A stretch of DNA of 64,000 nucleotides from Pseudaquabacterium terrae (GTDB lineage: Bacteria; Pseudomonadota; Gammaproteobacteria; Burkholderiales; Burkholderiaceae_C). Of the stretch, positions 1 to 11,494 are shown in pieces (position 1 is the first letter of the stretch; every line of letters starts with the position of its first letter). The notes beneath the pieces are model-generated. The model was not told the origin of the DNA, ran no database searches, and saw only the letters and a list, made by a program, of their open reading frames with translations. A program made the translations under genes and the position numbers. The stretch covers positions 248,001 to 312,000 of the forward strand of contig NZ_JABRWJ010000005.1 of assembly GCF_013266755.1 (NCBI RefSeq), written 5' to 3'.

Positions 1-1049
1 TGGCGAAGGCGCAGGGTCTGTGGAACCTGTTCCTGCCCGAATCGGCGCGCGGCGCCGGCCTGACGAATCTGGAATACGCGCCGCTGTGCGAAGTGATGGG
101 CCGCGTGCTGTGGTCGGCCGAGGTCTTCAACTGCGCGGCACCCGACACCGGCAACATGGAGCTGCTGGAACGCTACGGCAGCGCAGAGCACAAGCAGCGC
201 TGGCTCGAGCCGCTGCTGGCCGGCGAGATCCGCAGCTGCTTCGCGATGACCGAGCCGGACGTGGCCTCGAGCGACGCCACCAACATCGAATGCTCGATCA
301 CCCGCGACGGCGACGAGTACGTGATCGACGGCCGCAAGTGGTGGTCCTCGGGCGCCGTCGATCCGCGCTGCGCGCTGTTCATCGTGATGGGCAAAACCGA
401 TCCGAACCACCCCGACCGGCACCGCCAGCAGTCGATGATCATCGTGCCGCGCGACACGCCGGGCGTCACCGTCGTGCGGCCGCTGACGGTGTTCGGCTAC
501 GACGACGCGCCGCACGGCCATGCCGAGCTGATATTCGACAAAGTACGCGTGCCGGCCTCGAACCTGCTGCTCGGCGAAGGCCGCGGTTTCGAGATCGCGC
601 AGGGCCGCCTCGGGCCCGGCCGCATCCACCACTGCATGCGGGCGATCGGCATGGCCGAGCGCGCGCTCGAATTCATGTGCAAGCGCAGCGTGCAGCGCGA
701 GGCCTTCGGCAAGCGCCTGGCCGAGCAGGGCGTGACGCTGGAGCGCATCGCGCAATCGCGCATCCTGATCGACCAGGCGCGGCTGCTGGTGCTGAAGGCG
801 GCCGACATGATGGACCGCGTCGGCAACAAGGCGGCGCTGAAGGAGATCGGCATGATCAAGGTCGCCGCCCCGGCGATGGCCTGCCAGGTGATCGACTGGG
901 CGATGCAGCTGCACGGCGCGGGCGGTCTGTCGAGCGACTTTCCGCTGGCCTACGACTACGCGCAGGTGCGCACGCTGCGCTTCGCGGATGGGCCGGACGA
1001 GGTGCACCGCAACCAGATCGCCAAGCTCGAGCTCGCGCGGTATCGCTGA
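1..1049 (+). CDS. Acyl-CoA dehydrogenase, 5' end cut by window
   Basis: Flavoprotein that would introduce the alpha-beta double bond into an acyl-CoA, the first step of beta-oxidation in the cytoplasm. The frame is open from base 3 with no start, so the gene begins outside the window; 348 residues are present and perhaps 60-80 are missing against a usual 400-430. Visible family marks are the FAD-site stretch [16 protein letters not shown], the WWSSGA segment, and the C-terminal [14 protein letters not shown], where the Glu is at the usual catalytic-base position of the ACAD10/11-like branch. It lies 24 bp upstream of the CoA ligase on the same strand, so ligase and dehydrogenase probably act on the same acid. 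Substrate unknown. Confidence 0.93.
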
Positions 1050-1073
1050 GAACGACTGAACCAGGAGACGACG

Positions 1074-2777
1074 ATGGCAGAGCATCCGTGGATCAAGTCG
1101 TACCCGGAGGGCGTGCGCTGGGACGCCGCGCTCGAGCTCGGCAGCGTGCCGCAGATCCTGGACGGCGCGGCCGCGCGCTGGCCGGGGCTGCCGGCGCTGC
1201 ACTTCCAGGGCCGCAGCTTCACCTACCGCGAGCTGAAGGCGCTGTGCGACCGCGCGGCCGTCGGCTTCCGGCGCCTGGGTGTCGGCCCGGGCGTGCATGT
1301 CGGGCTCTACCTGCCGAACACGCCGCACTACCTGATCGCCTTCTTCGGCGTGCTGAAGGCCGGCGGCACCGTCGTCAACTACTCGCCGCTGGATGTCGAG
1401 CGGGTGATCGAGCACAAGGTCGAGGACAGCCGCACCGAGATCATGGTGACGCTCGACATGCCGGCGCTGCGGGACGTCGTCGAGCGGCTGCTCACCCACA
1501 CGCCGCTGCGTTGCGCGGTGGTGGGCGGCCTCGCCGAGTTCAGCGGTGACACGTCGCCGGCGCGGCCTGCCGCCCTCCCCGGCGATGGCCGGCACCTGCA
1601 CTTCGAGGACCTGCTGGCCAACAGCGGCGACTACGAGCGCTACCCGCTGCGGCCCGACGCGGCGATCGCCGTGCTGCAGTACACCGGCGGCACCACCGGC
1701 GAGCCGAAGGCCGCGATGCTCACGCATGCCAACCTCAGCGCCGCGTGCGGCCAGATGTGGGCCATCGTCAACGGCCGGCCGAAGATGCTGGACCTGGGCA
1801 GCGAGCGCGTGCTCGTGGTGCTGCCGCTGTTCCACATCTATGCGCTGGTGGCCGACATGCTGTTCGGCCTGATGATCGGCGCCGAGCTGGTGCTGCAGCT
1901 GCGCTTCGAGGTCGATACCGCGCTGGAGGTCTTGTCGGAGCGGCTTATCACCGTGTTCCCCGGCGTGCCGACGATGTTCGCGGCGATCGTCGACCATCCG
2001 GACATCGCCCGCTTCGATCTGCGCGCGCTGCGCCATTGCGGCTCGGGCGGTGCGCCGCTGCCGCTGGAGGTGGCTCAGCAGTTCCAGCGCCTGACCGGCT
2101 GCAGCCTCGGCGAAGGCTGGGGCATGACCGAGACCGCGCCGACGGGCACCTTCACGCCCGCCTTCGGCCGCCGCAAGCCGGGCTCCTGCGGGCTGCCGGT
2201 GCCGGGTGTGCGCATCAAGATCGTCGACATCGATGACCCGGCGCGCGAGCTGCCGCTGGGCGAGCGCGGCGAGATCTGCATCCAAGGCCCGAACGTGATG
2301 CAGGGGTACTGGAAGCGGCCCGAGGCCAGCGCCGCGGCCTTCACCGCCGACGGCTACCTGCGCACCGGCGATGTCGGCCGCATGGACGAGGACGGCTTCG
2401 TCTTCATCGTCGACCGCTGCAAGGACATGATCCTGTGCAGCGGCTTCAACGTCTACCCGCGCAATATCGAGGAAGCGATCTACGAGCACCCGGCCGTCGC
2501 CGAGGTCTGCGTGATCGGCGTGCCCGATGCCTACCGCGGCCAGTCGCCGAAGGCCTTCGTCAAGCTGCGCCACGGTGCGGCGGCGTTCGCGCTCGACGAG
2601 CTGAAGCAGTTTCTCGCCGACAAGCTCGGTCGGCACGAGATGGTGCAGCAGCTGGAGCTGCGCGCCGAGCTGCCGAAGACGCCCGTCGGCAAGCTGTCGA
2701 AGAAGATGCTGGTCGAGGAGGAGCAGCGCAGGCGCAGCCGCGAAGCGGCGACGAGTGGGTCAGAACTGTCCGCCTAA
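1074..2777 (+). CDS. Acyl-CoA ligase of the AMP-forming family (PimA/long-chain type)
   Basis: Activates a carboxylic acid to its CoA thioester through an acyl-adenylate. The 567-residue protein has the whole adenylate-forming signature: phosphate loop TGGTTGEPKAAM near residue 205, GWGMTETAPTG near 350, YLRTGDVGRMDEDGF near 430 and the C-terminal PKTPVGKLSKKM with the catalytic lysine. The N-terminal WIKSYPEGVRWD type is frequent in dicarboxylate/pimeloyl-CoA and long-chain ligases. AGGAG sits 6 bases before the ATG, fixing the start. It follows the acyl-CoA dehydrogenase and its last 18 bases overlap the convergent IclR gene. The exact acid cannot be read from the sequence. Confidence 0.93.
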   Translation: MAEHPWIKSYPEGVRWDAALELGSVPQILDGAAARWPGLPALHFQGRSFTYRELKALCDRAAVGFRRLGVGPGVHVGLYLPNTPHYLIAFFGVLKAGGTVVNYSPLDVERVIEHKVEDSRTEIMVTLDMPALRDVVERLLTHTPLRCAVVGGLAEFSGDTSPARPAALPGDGRHLHFEDLLANSGDYERYPLRPDAAIAVLQYTGGTTGEPKAAMLTHANLSAACGQMWAIVNGRPKMLDLGSERVLVVLPLFHIYALVADMLFGLMIGAELVLQLRFEVDTALEVLSERLITVFPGVPTMFAAIVDHPDIARFDLRALRHCGSGGAPLPLEVAQQFQRLTGCSLGEGWGMTETAPTGTFTPAFGRRKPGSCGLPVPGVRIKIVDIDDPARELPLGERGEICIQGPNVMQGYWKRPEASAAAFTADGYLRTGDVGRMDEDGFVFIVDRCKDMILCSGFNVYPRNIEEAIYEHPAVAEVCVIGVPDAYRGQSPKAFVKLRHGAAAFALDELKQFLADKLGRHEMVQQLELRAELPKTPVGKLSKKMLVEEEQRRRSREAATSGSELSA

Positions 2778-3584
2778 CGCCTGGTTGACGCGGTCGCGCA
2801 GCTGCATCAGGCGCGGCCCGACCTCGCTGATCAACTGGTCCTTGGCGAGCTGGCGCGCCGGCACGCTGCAGCTGAAGGCCATCACGCGGCGGCCGTCGCC
2901 GGACAGCATCGGCACGCTCACCGCGTGCACGTCCTTGTTCCAGTCGCCGAGCGACAGGCACAGGCCGTGGCGCGCGTAGTCGCGGAACGCCGCTTCGTAG
3001 TCGCGCTTGACCAGCGGCCAGTCGTCCTTCCTGACCGCCTTCTGCGCCGCTGCCATCAGCCGCTCGCGCTCGGCCGCATCGAAGGCCGCCAGGCAGGCGC
3101 GCCCGACCGCGGTGGTGCCGCGCGGCACGCGTTCGCCGACGCCGACGCGCAGCGCGAAGGTCGGGTTGCCGTGCACGACTTCGAGGAACACCATGTGCTC
3201 GGCCTGCGGCGCAGCCAGTGTGACCGTGGCGCGCATGTCGGTGGCCAACTGCTGCATCAGCGGGCGCGCGATCTCGCGCACGTCGAGCCCGGCGAGGTAG
3301 TTGACGCTGAACTGCACCACCGCCAGGCCGAGCGAGTACTTCTCGATCGACGGCTGGAAGTCGAGGTAGCCGAGCTCCGTCAACGTGTGCGTCAGCCGCG
3401 CGATCGTCGAGCGCGGCATGCCGGTGCGCGTGGCGAGGTCCTTGTTGCCGAGCGCGCGTTCACCGCGCTTGAAGCAGCGCAGGATCGCGAAGCCGCGCGC
3501 GACGGCGGTGACGAAATCGGGATCGTTGCGCTGTGCTTCGGTCTCGGGCGGAACCTCGGGCAGCTCGGGCTTCTTCTTCGTCAT
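2760..3584 (-). CDS. IclR-family transcriptional regulator
   Basis: Cytoplasmic DNA-binding protein, 274 residues, of the IclR type that usually controls catabolic operons in response to a small carboxylate. A winged helix-turn-helix occupies about residues 22-85 (FVTAVARGFAILRCF, then DLATRTGMPRSTIARLTHTL) and the effector-binding domain follows, with the family stretch VPRGTTAVGRACLA near 160. The ATG overlaps the stop of the upstream SDR gene by 4 bases (ATGA), so it is translated as the last gene of the transporter/SDR operon. Its 3' end overlaps the convergent CoA ligase by 18 bp. Regulation of this island is inferred from position only. Confidence 0.9.
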   Translation of the reverse strand: MTKKKPELPEVPPETEAQRNDPDFVTAVARGFAILRCFKRGERALGNKDLATRTGMPRSTIARLTHTLTELGYLDFQPSIEKYSLGLAVVQFSVNYLAGLDVREIARPLMQQLATDMRATVTLAAPQAEHMVFLEVVHGNPTFALRVGVGERVPRGTTAVGRACLAAFDAAERERLMAAAQKAVRKDDWPLVKRDYEAAFRDYARHGLCLSLGDWNKDVHAVSVPMLSGDGRRVMAFSCSVPARQLAKDQLISEVGPRLMQLRDRVNQALGGQF

Positions 3585-4420
3585 GCCTTCGCGCGCAGCG
3601 GCAGCGATTCGACCTGCTCGTTCCACAGCGCCGAGCCGACCAGGTTCGAGCCGCCATCGACGCCGATCACCTGGCCGGTGATCATGCGTGCCAGCGGCGA
3701 GGCCAGGAACACGGCGGCCTGGCCGATGTCGTCCGGCGTGCCGTAGGCGCGCAGCGGGATCGACTTCTTGTTGACCTCGTCGAAGGCCGGGTTCGACAGC
3801 CGCTTCAGCCCCTCGGTGCCCTCGATCGGCCCCGGCACGATGCTGTTGGCGCGGATGCCGTGGCGGCCCCATTCGACCGCCAGGTTCTTCATCATGATGT
3901 CGATGCCGGCCTTCGCGGCGGCCACGTGCAACTGGTAGGCCTGCGGCACGAAGGCCTGGCCGGCGGAGATGAAGAGCAGGCAGCCGCGGGTGGCTTTCAG
4001 CTGCTCGAAGGCGCCGCGCGACGACTGGAAGGCGCCCTGCAGGTCGATGTCGATCACCGTGCGGAAGCCGTTCGGGCTCAGCGCCTCGGCCGGGCACAGG
4101 AAGTTGCCGGCGGCGCCGCAGACCAGCACGTCGATCGGGCCGAGCTCGGCCTTCGTGCGCTCGAACGCCGCGTCGAGCGCTGCGGCATCGCGCACGTCGG
4201 CCACCACCGGCAGCACGCGGCCGCCGGTGTGGGCGTTGAGCTCGCGCAATTCACGCGCCGCGGTGTCCAGCTTGTCCTGCGTGCGGCCGCAGATCGCCAG
4301 CTGTGCGCCGAGCGCGGCGAAGTGGCGCGCCACCCCCAGGTTGATGCCGCTGCCGCCGCCGGTGATGAACACCGTCTTGCCCTGGAACAGCGTGGGCGGG
4401 AAGAACTGATCGATCACCAT
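3581..4420 (-). CDS. SDR oxidoreductase, 2,4-dienoyl-CoA-reductase-like
   Basis: NAD(P)H-dependent short-chain dehydrogenase/reductase, 279 residues. The nucleotide-binding TGGGSGINLG is near residue 20 and CGAAGNF stands for the NNAG motif. The active-site strand reads SAGQAFVPQAYQLHVAAAKAG: the lysine is present but the residue four before it is Val, not the usual Tyr. This layout, with EWG..GIRANSIVPGPIEGTEG behind it, is that of peroxisomal-type 2,4-dienoyl-CoA reductases, which handle double bonds during beta-oxidation of unsaturated acids. It starts 20 bp after livF and overlaps the IclR gene. The start is the ATG after AGGAGTACCCC. An ordinary 3-hydroxyacyl dehydrogenase role is less likely. 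Confidence 0.88.
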   Translation of the reverse strand: MVIDQFFPPTLFQGKTVFITGGGSGINLGVARHFAALGAQLAICGRTQDKLDTAARELRELNAHTGGRVLPVVADVRDAAALDAAFERTKAELGPIDVLVCGAAGNFLCPAEALSPNGFRTVIDIDLQGAFQSSRGAFEQLKATRGCLLFISAGQAFVPQAYQLHVAAAKAGIDIMMKNLAVEWGRHGIRANSIVPGPIEGTEGLKRLSNPAFDEVNKKSIPLRAYGTPDDIGQAAVFLASPLARMITGQVIGVDGGSNLVGSALWNEQVESLPLRAKA

Positions 4421-4440: not shown

Positions 4441-5136
4441 TCAGACCTCGAGCCACTCCTTGCGCACGTAGGCGTTGGCCTTCAGCTCGGTCGGCGTGCC
4501 CTCGAAGACGATCTGCCCGTGACCCATCACCAGGCAGCGCTCGCTGACTTCCAAAGCGATCGTCAGCTTCTGCTCGACCAGCAGCACCGAGATGCCGCGG
4601 CGCTTGAGCTCGCGCAGGTATTCGGCGACCAGCTCGACGATCTTCGGCGCCAGGCCTTCGGTCGGCTCGTCGATCATGATCAGGTCGGGGTCGCCCATCA
4701 GCGTGCGGCACAGCGTCAGCATCTGCTGCTCGCCGCCGGACAGCACGCCGGCCTCCGTGTGCTGGCGTTCCTTCAGCCGCGGGAACATCCCGTACATGTC
4801 GTCGAAGCCCCAGCGCGGCTGCTTGGCGCCGCGTTTCTGGCCGAGCATCAGGTTCTGGTGCACGGTGAGCTTCGGAAAGATGTCGCGGTTCTCCGGCACG
4901 TAGCCGATGCCGAGGTGCGCGATCTCGTAGGCCTGCTGGCCGAGGATCTGCTGGTCGCGCCAGGTGATCGAGCCCTGGCCCTCGACCAGGCCCATGATGC
5001 TCTTGACGGTGGTCGAGCGACCCGAGCCGTTGCGCCCGAGCAGCGCGACGATCTCGCCCGGCGGGACCTCGAAGTTGACCCCGTGCAGCACATGGCTCTT
5101 GCCGTAGAAGGCGTGCAGGTCGTGCAGTTTCAGCAT
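4441..5136 (-). CDS. livF: Branched-chain/organic-acid ABC importer ATPase, LivF type, with Arg in Walker A
   Basis: One of two ATPases of a Liv (HAAT) importer; 231 residues, usual length. Walker A reads GRNGSGRST at residues 34-42, so Arg40 (codon CGC) replaces the lysine that binds ATP phosphates. The signature LSGGEQQ (132-138) and Walker B LIMIDE (152-157) are canonical, and Gln189 stands at the switch-His position, as is normal for LivF. The Arg is a real codon, not a read error of one base. Together with the altered LivG signature this suggests one weak ATP site (see findings). The gene is fifth in the operon, 18 bp after livG. Confidence 0.93.
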   Translation of the reverse strand: MLKLHDLHAFYGKSHVLHGVNFEVPPGEIVALLGRNGSGRSTTVKSIMGLVEGQGSITWRDQQILGQQAYEIAHLGIGYVPENRDIFPKLTVHQNLMLGQKRGAKQPRWGFDDMYGMFPRLKERQHTEAGVLSGGEQQMLTLCRTLMGDPDLIMIDEPTEGLAPKIVELVAEYLRELKRRGISVLLVEQKLTIALEVSERCLVMGHGQIVFEGTPTELKANAYVRKEWLEV

Positions 5137-5154
5137 CGCTCGAGTTCTCCGGGT

Positions 5155-5946
5155 TCAGTGCCCGGCCGGCGCGGCGGCTTCGGCCGCCTGCGCATCGGCC
5201 AGCACCGAGCCGAGGTAGGCCTCCTGCACGCGCGGATTGGCGCGCACCGCATCGGGCACGTCGAAGGCGATCACCTCGCCGTAGACCAGCACCGCGATCT
5301 TGTCGGCCAGGCCGAAGACCACGCCCATGTCGTGCTCGACGGTCAAGAGCGTCTTGCCGGCGGTGACCTCGCGGATCAGCTGGATGAAGCGCTTGGTCTC
5401 GCTCTTGCTCATGCCGGCGGTCGGCTCGTCGAGCAGGATCACGCTGGAGCCGCCGGCGATCGTGATGCCGATCTCCAGCGCACGCTGCTCGGCATAGGTC
5501 AGGTTCATCGCCAGGTGGTCGCGCCGGCGCTCGAGCTTGATCATCGCCAGCACTTCCTCGGCGCGGTCATTCGCGTCGTGCGCGTCGGCCAGGAACTTCC
5601 AGAAGGCGTAGCGGTAGCCCTGCGACCACAATACCGCGCAGCGCAGGTTCTCGAACACCGACAGCCGCGTGAACAGGTTGCTGACCTGGAAACTGCGCGA
5701 CAGGCCGCGGCGGTTGATCTGGAACGGCGTCATGCCGTCGATGCGCTGGCCATCGAGCAGGATCTCGCCGCTCGAGGGCCCGAAGCGGCCGCTGATGAGA
5801 TTGAACAGCGTCGACTTGCCGGCGCCGTTCGGCCCGATGATCGCGACCCGCTCGCCCGCCTTCACCGCCAGGTTGGCGCCGCGAATGATCTCGGTCTTGC
5901 CGAAGCTCTTGCGCAGGTCGCGCAGCTCGACTGCAAACGCGCTCAC
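5155..5946 (-). CDS. livG: Branched-chain/organic-acid ABC importer ATPase, LivG type, with altered signature motif
   Basis: Second ATPase of the importer, 263 residues. Walker A GPNGAGKST is canonical (Lys44), Walker B is VILLDE (about 169-174) and the switch His205 is present. The signature is LTYAEQR at 149-155: Ala152 replaces the glycine of the usual YGQQR or SGGQ. The start is a GTG, because GGAGG lies 4 bases before it and the GTGA overlaps the livM stop, indicating coupled translation. The typical LivG tail GEVIAFDVPDAVRANPRVQEAYLG-type element is present. It would pair with LivF under LivH/LivM. Confidence 0.93.
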   Translation of the reverse strand: MSAFAVELRDLRKSFGKTEIIRGANLAVKAGERVAIIGPNGAGKSTLFNLISGRFGPSSGEILLDGQRIDGMTPFQINRRGLSRSFQVSNLFTRLSVFENLRCAVLWSQGYRYAFWKFLADAHDANDRAEEVLAMIKLERRRDHLAMNLTYAEQRALEIGITIAGGSSVILLDEPTAGMSKSETKRFIQLIREVTAGKTLLTVEHDMGVVFGLADKIAVLVYGEVIAFDVPDAVRANPRVQEAYLGSVLADAQAAEAAAPAGH

Positions 5947-7247
5947 AGGGCCTCCCTCCGCTTGATTTCCTTCTCGATCTCTTCCTGGATCACGCCCCAC
6001 TCGCGGCTGAAGCTGCGGCGCGTGAGCTCGAACATCAGCATGCCGGTCAGCATCACGAAGACCGCGCCGAACCAGCTGTCGAGGCTGCCAGCGTTCAGCG
6101 TCGCGCCGAGGAAGTTCATCTTCGGGCCGAGCGCCGCGTTCAGCTGCAGGTGGTACATCATCTCGATCATTGCCGCGGCGCCGATCAAGGCGATCAGCGC
6201 CGCGCCACCGAGCGCCAGGTACGAGGTCCAGACCCGCCTGAGCTTGCCGAACATCGCCAGCCGCAGGTTCATCATGATCAGGCTGGCGATGCCGCCGGGC
6301 GCATACATCACCATGAACAGGAACACGATGCCCAGGTACAGCAGCCACGCCTGCGTCAGCTCCGACAGCAGCACCAGCGCAATGACCATCAGCACCGCAC
6401 CGATGATCGGGCCGAAGAAGAAGGTGGCGCCGCCGAGGAAGACGAACAGCAGGTAGGCGCCCGAACGCGCCGCGCCGACGACCTCGGCGGTGACGATCTC
6501 GAAGTTCAGCGCCGCCAGCCCGCCCGAGATGCCGGAAAAGAAGCCGGCGACCATGAACGCGAGGTAGCGCACGGTCTGCGTGCTGTAGCCGATGAACTCG
6601 ACGCGTTCGGGGTTGTCGCGCACGGCATTCAGCATGCGGCCGAGCGGCGTGCGCGTCAGCGCGTACATCAAGGCGGTGGAGATGAAGCAGTAGATCGCGA
6701 TCAGGTAGTACAGCTGGATTTGCGGGCCGAACGTGATGCCCAGCACCGGCTTGCCGATCACACGGTTGCCCGAGATGCCGCCTTCGCCGCCGAAGAACTC
6801 CGGAATCATCAGCGACATCGACCACACCAGCTCGCCGATGCCGAGCGTGATCATCGCGAAAGTGGTGCCGGACTTCTTGGTCGTCACGTAGCCGAGCACC
6901 GCGGCGAAGAACAGCCCCGCCAGCCCGCCGACCATCGGCACCAGGCTGACCGGCAGGTTCAGCGTGCCCGCGGTCACCAGGTTCAGCGTGTGAATGGCGA
7001 GGAAGGAGCCCAGGCCGCTGTACACCGCATGGCCGAAGCTCAGCATGCCGCCCTGGCCGAGCAGCACGTTGTACGCCAGGCAGACGATGATCGCGATGCC
7101 CATCTGCGACAGCATCGTCTGCGCGAAGCTGCTGGTCCACAGCAGCGGCGCCACGGCGAGGATCAGCGCGAAGCCGCCCCAGATCAGCCAGCGGCCGACG
7201 TTGATGGGGCGAAAGTGGACGTGCGGACGAGTCTCGTGAACGTGCAT
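5943..7247 (-). CDS. livM: ABC importer permease, LivM type, with extended C-terminus
   Basis: Inner-membrane permease subunit, 434 residues; LivM proteins are usually about 310-360. The core has the expected helices and the landmark LLGQGGMLSFGHAVY near residue 65 and PLGRMLNAVRDNPERVEFIGYS near 205. After the normal end around MYAPGGIASLIMMN there are about 115 more residues with two further hydrophobic segments and a charged cytoplasmic tail (EEIEKEIKRREAL). AAGG lies 6 bases before the ATG, inside the end of livH; the gene starts 2 bp after livH stops and its own stop overlaps livG. Confidence 0.92.
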   Translation of the reverse strand: MHVHETRPHVHFRPINVGRWLIWGGFALILAVAPLLWTSSFAQTMLSQMGIAIIVCLAYNVLLGQGGMLSFGHAVYSGLGSFLAIHTLNLVTAGTLNLPVSLVPMVGGLAGLFFAAVLGYVTTKKSGTTFAMITLGIGELVWSMSLMIPEFFGGEGGISGNRVIGKPVLGITFGPQIQLYYLIAIYCFISTALMYALTRTPLGRMLNAVRDNPERVEFIGYSTQTVRYLAFMVAGFFSGISGGLAALNFEIVTAEVVGAARSGAYLLFVFLGGATFFFGPIIGAVLMVIALVLLSELTQAWLLYLGIVFLFMVMYAPGGIASLIMMNLRLAMFGKLRRVWTSYLALGGAALIALIGAAAMIEMMYHLQLNAALGPKMNFLGATLNAGSLDSWFGAVFVMLTGMLMFELTRRSFSREWGVIQEEIEKEIKRREAL

Positions 7248-7249
7248 GG

Positions 7250-8263
7250 TCAACCTTCGCGCGTGCCGAGCAGGCCCTTCGGCCGGAAGATCAGCATCAG
7301 CACCAGCAGCAGGTACGGCAGGATCGGCGCCGCCTGCGACAGCGTGATGCGCAGCAGCGGCCAGCCCGGGGTCGACGGGCCGATCTGGCCACCCATCGCG
7401 TTGATCGCATCGGCAAACGACTTGTCGACGGTCAGCGGCAGCGTCTGGATCAGGCCGATCAGGATCGACGCGACGAAGGCGCCGACCAGCGAGCCCATGC
7501 CGCCGACGACCACCACGACGAAGATGATCGAGCCGACGACACCGGCCATCGCCGGCTCGGTGACGAAGGTGATGCCGCCGATCACGCCGGCCAGCCCGGC
7601 CAGCGCACAGCCGCTGCCGAAGACCAGCATGAAGACACGCGGCACGTTGTGGCCGAGCGATTCCACCGCTTCCGGATGTGTCAGCGCCGCCTGGATCACG
7701 AGTCCGATGCGCGTGCGCGTCAGCAGCAGCCACAGCGCCAGCAGCATCAGCAGCGCGACCAGCATCATGAAGGCGCGGGTCATCGGGAAGCGCGAGCACT
7801 GGGCGACCTTGCACAGCGCTTCGGGCGCAGTGCCCAGCACGATCGACAGCCCGTCGGCGCCTTGCACGACGGTGAACGCCGCGCCGGCGAGCAACGCCGG
7901 CGGATCGAAGGGCAGCGGCGTGCGGCCCCAGATCAGCTGCACGACCTCGAGCACGACATAGGTCAGTCCGAAGGTGATCAGCAGCTCGGGCACGTGGCCG
8001 AACGCGTGCACGCGGCGCAGCGCCGTGCGCTCGAAGCCGGCACCTGCGAGGCCCACCGCGAGCGGCGCCAGCAGCAGCGCCGGCCAGAAGCCGACCAGCC
8101 CGGTCAGCGTGTACGCGAAGTACGCGCCGATCATGTAGAAGCTGGCGTGCGCGAAATTCAGCACGCCCATCATGCTGAAGATCAGCGTCAGCCCGGAGCT
8201 GAGCATGAACAGCAGCAGCCCGGAGCTGACGCCGTTCAAGGTGTTGATCAGGACTTGGTCCAC
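7250..8263 (-). CDS. livH: ABC importer permease, LivH type
   Basis: Inner-membrane permease subunit, 337 residues, somewhat longer than the usual 290-310. The N-terminal MLSSGLTLIFSMMGVLNFAHASFYMIGAY-type first two helices, the TRTRIGLVIQAALTHPEAVESLG loop and the C-terminal RPKGLLGTREG are all typical. Between helices 4 and 5 there is an extra hydrophilic loop with two cysteines (APEALCKVAQCSRF). The start is GTG, supported by GGAG 6 bases upstream. It follows the solute-binding protein gene after an 83-bp gap that holds a hairpin. Confidence 0.92.
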   Translation of the reverse strand: MDQVLINTLNGVSSGLLLFMLSSGLTLIFSMMGVLNFAHASFYMIGAYFAYTLTGLVGFWPALLLAPLAVGLAGAGFERTALRRVHAFGHVPELLITFGLTYVVLEVVQLIWGRTPLPFDPPALLAGAAFTVVQGADGLSIVLGTAPEALCKVAQCSRFPMTRAFMMLVALLMLLALWLLLTRTRIGLVIQAALTHPEAVESLGHNVPRVFMLVFGSGCALAGLAGVIGGITFVTEPAMAGVVGSIIFVVVVVGGMGSLVGAFVASILIGLIQTLPLTVDKSFADAINAMGGQIGPSTPGWPLLRITLSQAAPILPYLLLVLMLIFRPKGLLGTREG

Positions 8264-9698: not shown

Positions 9699-11351
9699 TC
9701 ACACACCCGGCAGTCGATGCTCCTTGAATTGCTCCCGCAACTTCAATTTCTGGATCTTGCCGGTCGCCGTGTGCGGCAGCTCGGCGACGAAGGCCACGTC
9801 GTCCGGAATCTGCCACTTGGCAATGCGGCCTTCGTAGAAGCCGAGCAGCTCGTCGCGTGTCACCTGCGCGTCAGGCTTCTTGACGACGACGAGCAAGGGC
9901 CGCTCGTCCCACTTCGGATGCCGCGCCGCAATCACCGCGGCCTCGTGCACCGCGGGATGCGCCATCGCGATGTTCTCGAGATCGATCGAGCTGATCCATT
10001 CGCCGCCGGACTTGATGACGTCCTTGGAGCGATCGGTGATCTGCATGAAGCCGTCGGCATCGATCGTCGCGACGTCGCCGGTGGGGAACCAGCCCGGCTC
10101 GCCATCCACCGTCAGCAGCGGCGATTGGCCGGACTGGCCGAAATAACTCGCAATGACCCATGGCCCGCGCACCACCAGGTTGCCCGAGGCCGCGCCGTCC
10201 CACGGCAGTGCGCGGCCGTCGTCGTCGATGATCGCCATGTCGATGCCATAGATCGCGCGGCCCTGCTTCTCCAGCAGCTTCTGCTGGGCGTCGCGCGGCA
10301 GCGATGCATGCTTGGACTTCAGCTTCGACAGCGTGCCCAGCGGCGACAGCTCGGTCATGCCCCAGGCGTGGATCACCTCGACGCCGAAGTCATCCTGCAG
10401 CGTCTTCATCATGGCCGGTGGGCAGGCCGAGCCGCCGATCACCGTGCGCTTGAAGGTCGAGAACTTCAGCGCGTTGGTCTTGGCATAGGTCAGCAAGCCC
10501 AGCCACACCGTCGGCACGCCGGCCGAGAAGCTGACCTTCTCTTGCTCGAACAGCTCGTACAGCGACTTGCCGTCGAGGTGCGGCCCGGGCATCACGAGCT
10601 TGCAGCCGACCAGCGCGGCGGCATACGGCAGGCCCCAGGCGTTGACGTGGAACATCGGCACCACCGGCAGCACGACGTCGGCGGCCGAGCAGTCCATCGC
10701 ATCGGGCAGCGCCGCGGCGTAGGCATGCAGCACGCTCGAGCGGTGGCTGTAGACGGCGCCCTTGGGGTTGCCGGTCGTGCCCGAGGTGTAGCAGATGCTC
10801 GACGCCGTGTTCTCGTCGAAGCTCGGCCAGCGGTAGTCGCCGTCCTCGGCCTCGACCAGCTCCTCGTAGCACAGCAGGTTCGGAATCGCCGTCTGCGCCG
10901 GCATGTGGGCGCGAGCTGTCATCAGCACGAAGTGCTTCACCGTCGGCAGCTGCGCAGCCAGCTTCTCGATCAGCGGCAGGAAGTTCAGCTCGAAGAACAA
11001 TGCGCCGTCGGCTGCGTCGTTGGCGATCCAGGCGATCTGCTCGGGAAACAGGCGCGGGTTGATCGTGTGGCAGATCAGCTGCGAGCCGGAGCTGCCGTAG
11101 TAGATCTCGAGGTGCCGGTAGCCATTCCACGCCATCGTGGCGATGCGGTCGCCGCTGCGGTGCCCCAGCCGCTGCAGCGCCTGCGCCAGCTTGCGCGAAC
11201 GCAGCTCGACCTCGGCCCAGGTGGTGCGATGCATGTCGCCTTCGACGCGCTTCGAGACGATCTCCGTATCGCCCGAATGGCGCGCCGCGTGCCGCACCAG
11301 CGACGAGATCAACAACGGCATTTGCATCATCTGGCCCATCAAGGCTGGCAT
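9699..11351 (-). CDS. Fatty-acid/methylthiopropionate-type CoA ligase (DmdB-like)
   Basis: AMP-forming acyl-CoA synthetase, 550 residues. Motifs: [17 protein letters not shown] near residue 180, [12 protein letters not shown] near 330, [16 protein letters not shown] near 425 and [13 protein letters not shown] near 530 with the catalytic Lys. This layout is that of medium/long-chain and 3-methylthiopropionyl-CoA ligases. Two ATGs lie 12 bases apart; the second is chosen because GGAG sits 7 bases before it and the protein then begins MPALMGQ as family members do. It differs in subfamily from the ligase at 1074, so the island has two acid-activating enzymes. It lies upstream of the importer genes on the same strand. 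Confidence 0.92.
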
Positions 11352-11494
11352 GGCGGTCTCCATCGGTTTTGGATTGAACTCACAACGGGGTCGGATGCTG
11401 TCACGGCCGATGCTCCCCCCTTGTCATGCGGACGACAATCGGGCCGCCCCTACCATTGGAGGCATGCCGCTTGCCTGGAGGCCCGTTGCTCGCC

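Follow-up and report, generated by a model that had tools for sequence, protein, structure and literature searches.

An importer of the Liv type in Pseudaquabacterium terrae with an arginine Walker A motif and an altered signature in one predicted ATP site

The operon and its ATPase motifs

We analysed a stretch of 64,000 nucleotides of Pseudaquabacterium terrae (contig NZ_JABRWJ010000005.1, forward-strand positions 248,001 to 312,000), referred to here as the window and numbered from its first base. It contains an intact Liv/HAA-type operon, which on the (-) strand reads binding protein, LivH, LivM, LivG and LivF, as follows.

4441-5136, (-) strand: livF, 231 aa, with an Arg in Walker A and a canonical LSGGEQQ signature
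5155-5946, (-) strand: livG, 263 aa, altered in the signature but canonical in Walker A and at the switch His
5943-7247, (-) strand: livM-type permease, PF02653 (its start, 7247, deduced from the translation)
7250-8263, (-) strand: livH-type permease, PF02653
8347-9642, (-) strand: periplasmic binding protein, Peripla_BP_6

The assignment to the Liv/HAA type is given by two PF02653 permeases, a Peripla_BP_6 protein, and one LivG-type and one LivF-type ATPase within one operon, in which the livM and livG frames share four bases and LivG carries PF12399. Against the NCBIfam equivalog cut-offs, LivF reached 222 of 286 bits for UrtE and 173 of 441 for LivF, and LivG reached 199 of 304 for UrtD and 174 of 362 for LivG; all of these scores lie below the cut-offs and support no assignment to the E. 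coli-type LivF/LivG or UrtE/UrtD equivalogs and their substrates. The operon is flanked (window 93-4420 and 9699-11363) by genes for an acyl-CoA dehydrogenase, two CoA ligases, an IclR regulator and a short-chain dehydrogenase. Given these neighbors, the imported substrate may be an organic acid that is degraded via its CoA ester rather than leucine.

The catalytic motifs of the two ATPases were located as listed below, with the coordinates of the Walker A and signature motifs obtained by arithmetic from the translations.

5011-5037, (-) strand: LivF Walker A, GRNGSGRST, in which Arg40 (codon CGC, 5017-5019) replaces Lys
4729-4743, (-) strand: LivF signature LSGGE (of LSGGEQQ), canonical and expected opposite the LivG Walker A
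4570-4572, (-) strand: LivF Gln189 at the position of the switch His, a Gln in most LivF
4567-4569, (-) strand: LivF Lys190, the residue after the switch
5809-5835, (-) strand: LivG Walker A, GPNGAGKST, canonical
5482-5502, (-) strand: LivG signature LTYAEQR, with Ala152 (codon GCC, 5491-5493) at position 4
5332-5334, (-) strand: LivG switch His205

Walker B and switch read IDEP and VEQK in LivF, and LLDEP and VEHD in LivG. A preliminary description of this DNA had reported Arg40 and Ala152 and placed both in the same composite ATP site; the residue numbers and codons were verified, and the position of the motifs supports the shared site. The site formed by the LivG Walker A and the LivF signature is canonical as described there (GPNGAGKST, LSGGEQQ and His205). 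The same description had held that neither change can arise from a single base substitution, which was mistaken, as Gly to Ala (GGN to GCN) takes one change and Lys to Arg can also take one (AAR to AGR). The route from Lys to a CGN codon takes two, and CGN is used in 118 of 119 pairs that combine the LivF Arg with a LivG Ala or Ser.

Distribution and history of the two substitutions

The livGF stretch found matches (E <= 1e-100) in 14 of 21 genomes of the genus, at 15 places including the window's own. LivF had Arg at all 15, and LivG had Ala at 13 and Ser at 2. Absence of the pair from all close relatives had been named beforehand as a sign of isolated decay; instead, Arg stands with Ala or Ser at 14 of 14 other places in the genus. 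Searches with LivF matched 80 of 100 family genomes (E <= 1e-60) and 37 of 397 phylum genomes (E <= 1e-66), one of the latter (G252, locus L104) reading Lys+Gly (LivF Walker A residue first, LivG signature residue second, here and below). A search with LivG matched 5 of 274 class genomes (E <= 1e-62), the window's own included. The loci that we read comprised 30 from the family search, 30 from the phylum search (4 of them common to both) and 40 stretches taken by hand, mostly from weaker rows. We also scanned contigs with a LivF alignment, using peptide patterns for the LivF signature and Walker B rather than Walker A, although the alignment itself came from Arg-type LivF. The best 80 of 595 candidates gave 15 Arg+Ala, 1 Arg+Ser, 7 Arg+Gly, 55 Lys+Gly and 1 Lys+Ala pairs; at locus L161 the match starts 31 bases before the fetched DNA ends and LivG is missing, and this locus was excluded from the pair counts.

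Arg with Ala or Ser occurs in Variovorax, Comamonas, Tepidimonas, Paraburkholderia, Achromobacter, Ottowia, Reyranella, Bradyrhizobium and Ruegeria, in a gammaproteobacterial MAG and in one MAG titled Deltaproteobacteria that is placed in Myxococcota. The Arg+Ala/Ser clade (clade 1 hereafter) therefore spans beta-, alpha- and gammaproteobacteria and one myxococcal MAG, and the earlier suspicion of a conserved subfamily with similar sets in other Burkholderiales was borne out by a clade that extends well beyond that order. The five-gene order was kept in 15 of its 16 named loci, the sixteenth being L134, which had no match to the binding protein. This locus (at 5049, from an Ottowia MAG) has GRQGSGRST and an IDQR switch in LivF and a long branch, and is possibly relaxed. 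A relative of the ligase at 9699-11363 was seen at 4 of 16 named Arg+Ala/Ser loci, 2 of 55 Lys+Gly loci and 2 of 7 Arg+Gly loci.

Motifs were extracted by regular expression and profile, and by hand for LivG of L084, L102, L103 and L107 and LivF of L110. The 228 distinct LivF/LivG pairs comprised 109 Arg+Ala, 10 Arg+Ser, 34 Arg+Gly, 74 Lys+Gly and 1 Lys+Ala; thinned at 80% identity, the remaining 140 comprised 46, 9, 17, 67 and 1, respectively. These counts mirror the sampling of loci, as both Arg lineages were deliberately searched, and of all the samples the contig scan depends least on which residue stands in place of the lysine. A LivF with Lys faced a LivG with Gly in 74 of 75 pairs. The single exception, L187 (Bacillota, on a long branch), has LSYANRR with Ala and a Walker B of DAP without Glu in LivG, and GGNASGKST with Lys in LivF.

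Seven further Liv sets of the window's own genome were read (L002-L008), all seven with Gly in the LivG signature, and in one of them, L002, this Gly is combined with a LivF Arg. The LivF of L002 found matches at E <= 1e-80 in 61 of 299 genomes of the phylum, and among the 30 loci read from this search LivF had Arg in 27 and Lys in 3, with LivG Gly in all 30. With 8 pairs found earlier (one common to both), these 27 make a second Arg lineage of 34 distinct pairs, including L002, L229-L253, L255, L258 and others, from the same genome and from Pseudomonadota. It resembles clade 1 in the Arg Walker A and Gln switch of LivF and differs from it in a LivG signature, (L/M)xYG(R/Q)KR, that retains Gly, and in having the switch Gln followed by Asn in all 34 pairs. 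Its LivF Walker B read DEI rather than DEP in the 8 pairs inspected.

The question that had been posed for these operons, whether the two substitutions occur together, thus has a divided answer: among the loci read there is no exception within clade 1, and across Liv the association is not strict. Strict coupling of Arg and Ala is ruled out by the Arg lineage with LivG Gly, and across Liv systems as a whole neither residue dictates the other. Since Arg without Ala or Ser is stable in another Liv lineage, the change in the signature is not a necessary answer to Arg. Independent occurrence across genomes, which was to count against the idea of a linked pair, was found in part, in that the Arg+Gly lineage and one Lys+Ala pair exist, and the joint state itself arose once. 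Because this joint origin is a single event, co-evolution is not statistically demonstrable, and a sign test for correlated evolution had two independent pairs to work with (p = 1, no power). The two Arg stem branches make up 0.48 of a total tree length of 71.7 (0.7%, a rough post hoc figure), so that a loss of the glycine would seldom land on one of them by chance, though this is based on one event.

These origins were read from a quick tree of 132 pairs (80% identity cut, SH-aLRT support only) from which the Walker A and signature columns had been excluded. A single branch (SH-aLRT 100) set the Arg+Ala/Ser pairs, 60 of the 132 rows, apart from all the rest, and no other row had both changes. 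Arg+Ser formed one sub-clade of 9 rows within clade 1, and Arg+Gly formed a separate group of 7 rows nested among Lys+Gly sets that share the xYGRKR signature. The minimum number of changes on this tree was 2 between Lys and Arg and 3 at the signature position, and the Liv origins are one of Arg with Ala/Ser jointly, one of Arg without Ala/Ser and one of Ala without Arg (L187). A second quick tree (121 rows, again SH-aLRT only) was rooted with 22 RbsA-type (CUT2) ATPases, with clade 1 thinned to 20 Arg+Ala rows and L003, L134 and L187 left out. The 22 CUT2 rows stood apart (SH-aLRT 100) and clade 1 was nested inside Liv among Lys types, so that Arg and Ala are derived; inheritance of this state from CUT2 is excluded by the rooted quick tree. 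The importer is likewise not a CUT2/RbsA member, as livG and livF are separate genes and do not group with RbsA-type domains on the tree.

The nearest relative of clade 1 was L136, from a MAG titled Deltaproteobacteria, which has LivF Lys with a switch His and LivG Gly; none of the loci read branches at the base of the clade as an Arg+Gly or Lys+Ala intermediate. With the L136 LivF as query, 2 of 397 phylum genomes gave 3 places in all, one of them within clade 1 and two with Lys+Gly. The Ser of the Arg+Ser pairs is encoded by TCN in 10 of 10, and because TCN is one step from the Ala codons, the codons suggest that the signature changed from Gly to Ala to Ser.

Clade 1 is marked by a third change at the same site. 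The residue after the LivF switch is Lys or Arg in all 119 Arg+Ala/Ser pairs, whereas 68 of 74 Lys+Gly pairs and all 34 Arg+Gly pairs have Asn there. This position, residue 190, was the best LivF column after the class-defining Walker A one in separating thinned Arg+Ala/Ser from Lys+Gly pairs (Lys/Arg in 82 of 82 versus Asn in 63 of 68), although many other columns separate the two clades as well, as expected of separate lineages. We offer as a guess that Lys/Arg190 may replace part of the lost positive charge. Both genes are under purifying selection, with dN/dS among seven genus orthologues of 0.13-0.27 for livF and 0.16-0.32 for livG, computed on profile-aligned stretches that may include a few codons before the start. 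The Arg40 codons of the 119 pairs are CGC in 95, CGT in 13, CGA in 8, CGG in 2 and AGG in 1, and Arg is kept in all 60 clade-1 tree rows although its codon varies. Judged from its sequence, the operon looks like a working transporter.

Asymmetry in other Liv ATPases and in known transporters

Part of the asymmetry was common to ordinary Liv ATPases. Among the 75 Lys-type LivF, the switch residue was Gln in 71 and the Q-loop position was Glu in 64, Gln in 9 and Asp in 2; in Arg-type LivF, switch Gln and Q-loop Glu were both fixed (153 of 153). The sole switch His of a Lys-type LivF was that of L136 (VEHN, gene at 2346-3053), and L004, L005 and L151 had a switch Arg or Lys (VDRN, VDRD and VDKN). 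As E. coli K-12 also has the Gln (LivF reads VEQN and VPE, LivG IEHD and TFQ), Gln189 loses the standing of a special feature that it had been given. In 71 of 75 Lys-type pairs the first Gly of the LivG signature is replaced by Tyr or His. Because the Gln switch, the Glu Q-loop and the Tyr/His signature are this common, the LivF-side site is off-consensus in ordinary Liv too.

The other site stays canonical, because LivG keeps the Q-loop Gln and the switch His in 228 of 228 pairs and the Walker A Lys in 227 of 228. The exception, L084 (803-1971), has its LivG Walker A in a different frame from the signature, a frameshift of either the gene or the assembly. The altered motifs are thus confined to one of the two composite sites and are conserved in orthologues, as is characteristic of a degenerate site. 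The canonical LivFG of E. coli K-12 shares with the window's importer the livHMGF order, the PF02653 permeases and the Gln switch and Glu Q-loop of LivF, but it retains the Walker A Lys of LivF and the signature Gly of LivG.

A closely similar layout is found in fused importers. Of 21 relatives of the window's genome, 9 yielded RbsA-type matches, 22 in total, and we read all of these matches. Their second nucleotide-binding domain (NBD2) had Arg in Walker A in 20 and Gln in 2, with a Glu Q-loop, a Ser switch and LSGGNQQ in 22 of 22 and an altered Walker B in 2 of 22. NBD1 kept a canonical Walker A, Gln and His in all 22, and its signature had Ala at position 4 in 13 (L200-L203, L207, L208, L211, L213, L214 and L216-L219, each with an NBD2 Arg) and Gly in 9; residue 3 of this signature was mostly Val or Ile, versus Tyr in LivG. 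Two of the matches, L207 and L217, contain one internal TGA each. E. coli RbsA has the Arg in NBD2 (GLMGAGRTE) and LSIGDQQ in NBD1, so that an NBD1 Ala is common but not general. NBD2 thus resembles LivF (Arg Walker A, Glu Q-loop, canonical signature) and NBD1 resembles LivG, and RbsC and LivHM both belong to PF02653, whereas RbsA and NupO carry their domains in one chain rather than in separate livG and livF products and have a separate origin on the tree. A published study (PMC11466899) describes a degenerate site in B. subtilis RbsA and NupO, in which the second Walker A Lys is lacking and a signature is deviant; these are the only two fused ATPases of that species, and the study queries a link with fusion. 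Asymmetric sites had been said to be much less known in importers, a view that is overtaken by this degenerate site (PMC11466899) and by the same kind of double alteration in the fused RbsA-type importers that we read. As the layout is closely similar in unfused LivF and LivG, fusion is not required for an Arg Walker A with an Ala signature.

The heterodimeric exporters PatAB, TAP and CFTR likewise combine one consensus with one degenerate site, and TAP and CFTR retain the Walker A Lys. PatA has a Gln switch and a Walker B changed from Glu to Asp, and PatB an altered signature (PMC9541285). The importer described here has kept the Walker B Glu and lost the Walker A Lys. A loss of the kind seen in PatA was found in none of our 228 LivF, all of which have the Walker B Glu; because of this, the altered site may still hydrolyse some ATP. 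Human ABCG5/ABCG8, which exports sterols, is a eukaryotic exporter and a separate case of degeneration. Its degenerate site also pairs a Walker A Arg with an altered signature, and the signature changes accompany the change from Lys to Arg, according to PMC7756269. In the importer DppBCDF, an ATP analogue occupies one of two subunits without the binding protein and both with it, as reported in PMC12136057. Searches of PDB sequences returned no complex structure of the subfamily, the chain nearest to LivF being 1ji0, a single ATPase chain, and no solved relative of the RbsA-like L199 at 1e-40. In the literature searched, outside which most subscription journals lie, we found no biochemistry of these proteins and no paper on motif degeneration in LivF/LivG.

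Proposed mechanism and alternative explanations

On the evidence of these motifs and their conservation, we consider it probable that the importer works as a LivFG heterodimer in which one nucleotide site hydrolyses ATP and the other is structural. The first would consist of Walker A, Walker B, the Q-loop Gln and the switch His of LivG, closed by the LSGGE of LivF, and the second of the LivF Walker A with the LivG signature closing it. This second pairing is off-consensus already in most Liv sets read (Glu Q-loop, Gln switch, LxYG or LxHG signature), and clade 1 adds to it the Walker A Arg, the signature Ala or Ser and the Lys or Arg after the switch. In the general view of degenerate ABC sites, hydrolysis at the other site alone drives transport. 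By analogy, the altered site may bind nucleotide weakly or hold it unhydrolysed, and transport would be powered by hydrolysis at the LivG site alone.

A decaying or mis-sequenced operon in this genome has practically no chance of being the explanation: the Arg with Ala/Ser at all 14 other genus places, its spread across classes, the open frames and the dN/dS of 0.13-0.32 already refute it. Neutral drift deserves more attention, though we think it unlikely. By this account the LivF-side site lost catalysis early in Liv, and Arg, Ala and Ser are historical accidents that serve no function in themselves. Such a loss would fit the Gln switch and Glu Q-loop of most Lys-type LivF (71 and 64 of 75), the two changes from Lys to Arg within Liv and the prevalence of Arg in RbsA-type NBD2 (20 of 22), as well as the Gly kept at 30 of 30 loci from the search with the second Arg lineage and the interchange of Ala and Ser within clade 1. 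A neutral site should vary, however, and Arg was constant in 60 of 60 clade-1 and 7 of 7 second-lineage tree rows in spite of codon variation. It is more improbable still that both sites hydrolyse, with Arg40 substituting for Lys and Ala152 still closing the site, so that the transporter would be an ordinary one; the retained Walker B Glu, the positive charge of Arg and the smallness of the change to Ala speak for this reading, but the altered site also lacks the Q-loop Gln and the switch His while the other site is canonical.

A wider version of the one-hydrolytic-site model is possible, if rather doubtful: every Liv/HAA importer, and probably every other importer with PF02653 permeases, would have a built-in asymmetric ATPase in which the LivG-side (RbsA NBD1-side) site alone fires. 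Loss of the Walker A Lys, in RbsA-type ATPases and twice in Liv, would then be a repeated end point, and Arg40 with Lys/Arg190 in clade 1 would form a fixed clamp without hydrolysable nucleotide, with one ATP used per cycle.

The layout that is probable for this importer, one working and one silent ATP site, has already been described for ribose-type importers and for ABCG5/G8, and would here occur in two unfused subunits and in several proteobacterial groups. As Lys+Gly, Arg+Gly, Arg+Ala and Arg+Ser occur as natural variants in separate genes, they make it testable whether such importers use one or two ATP hydrolyses per transport cycle.
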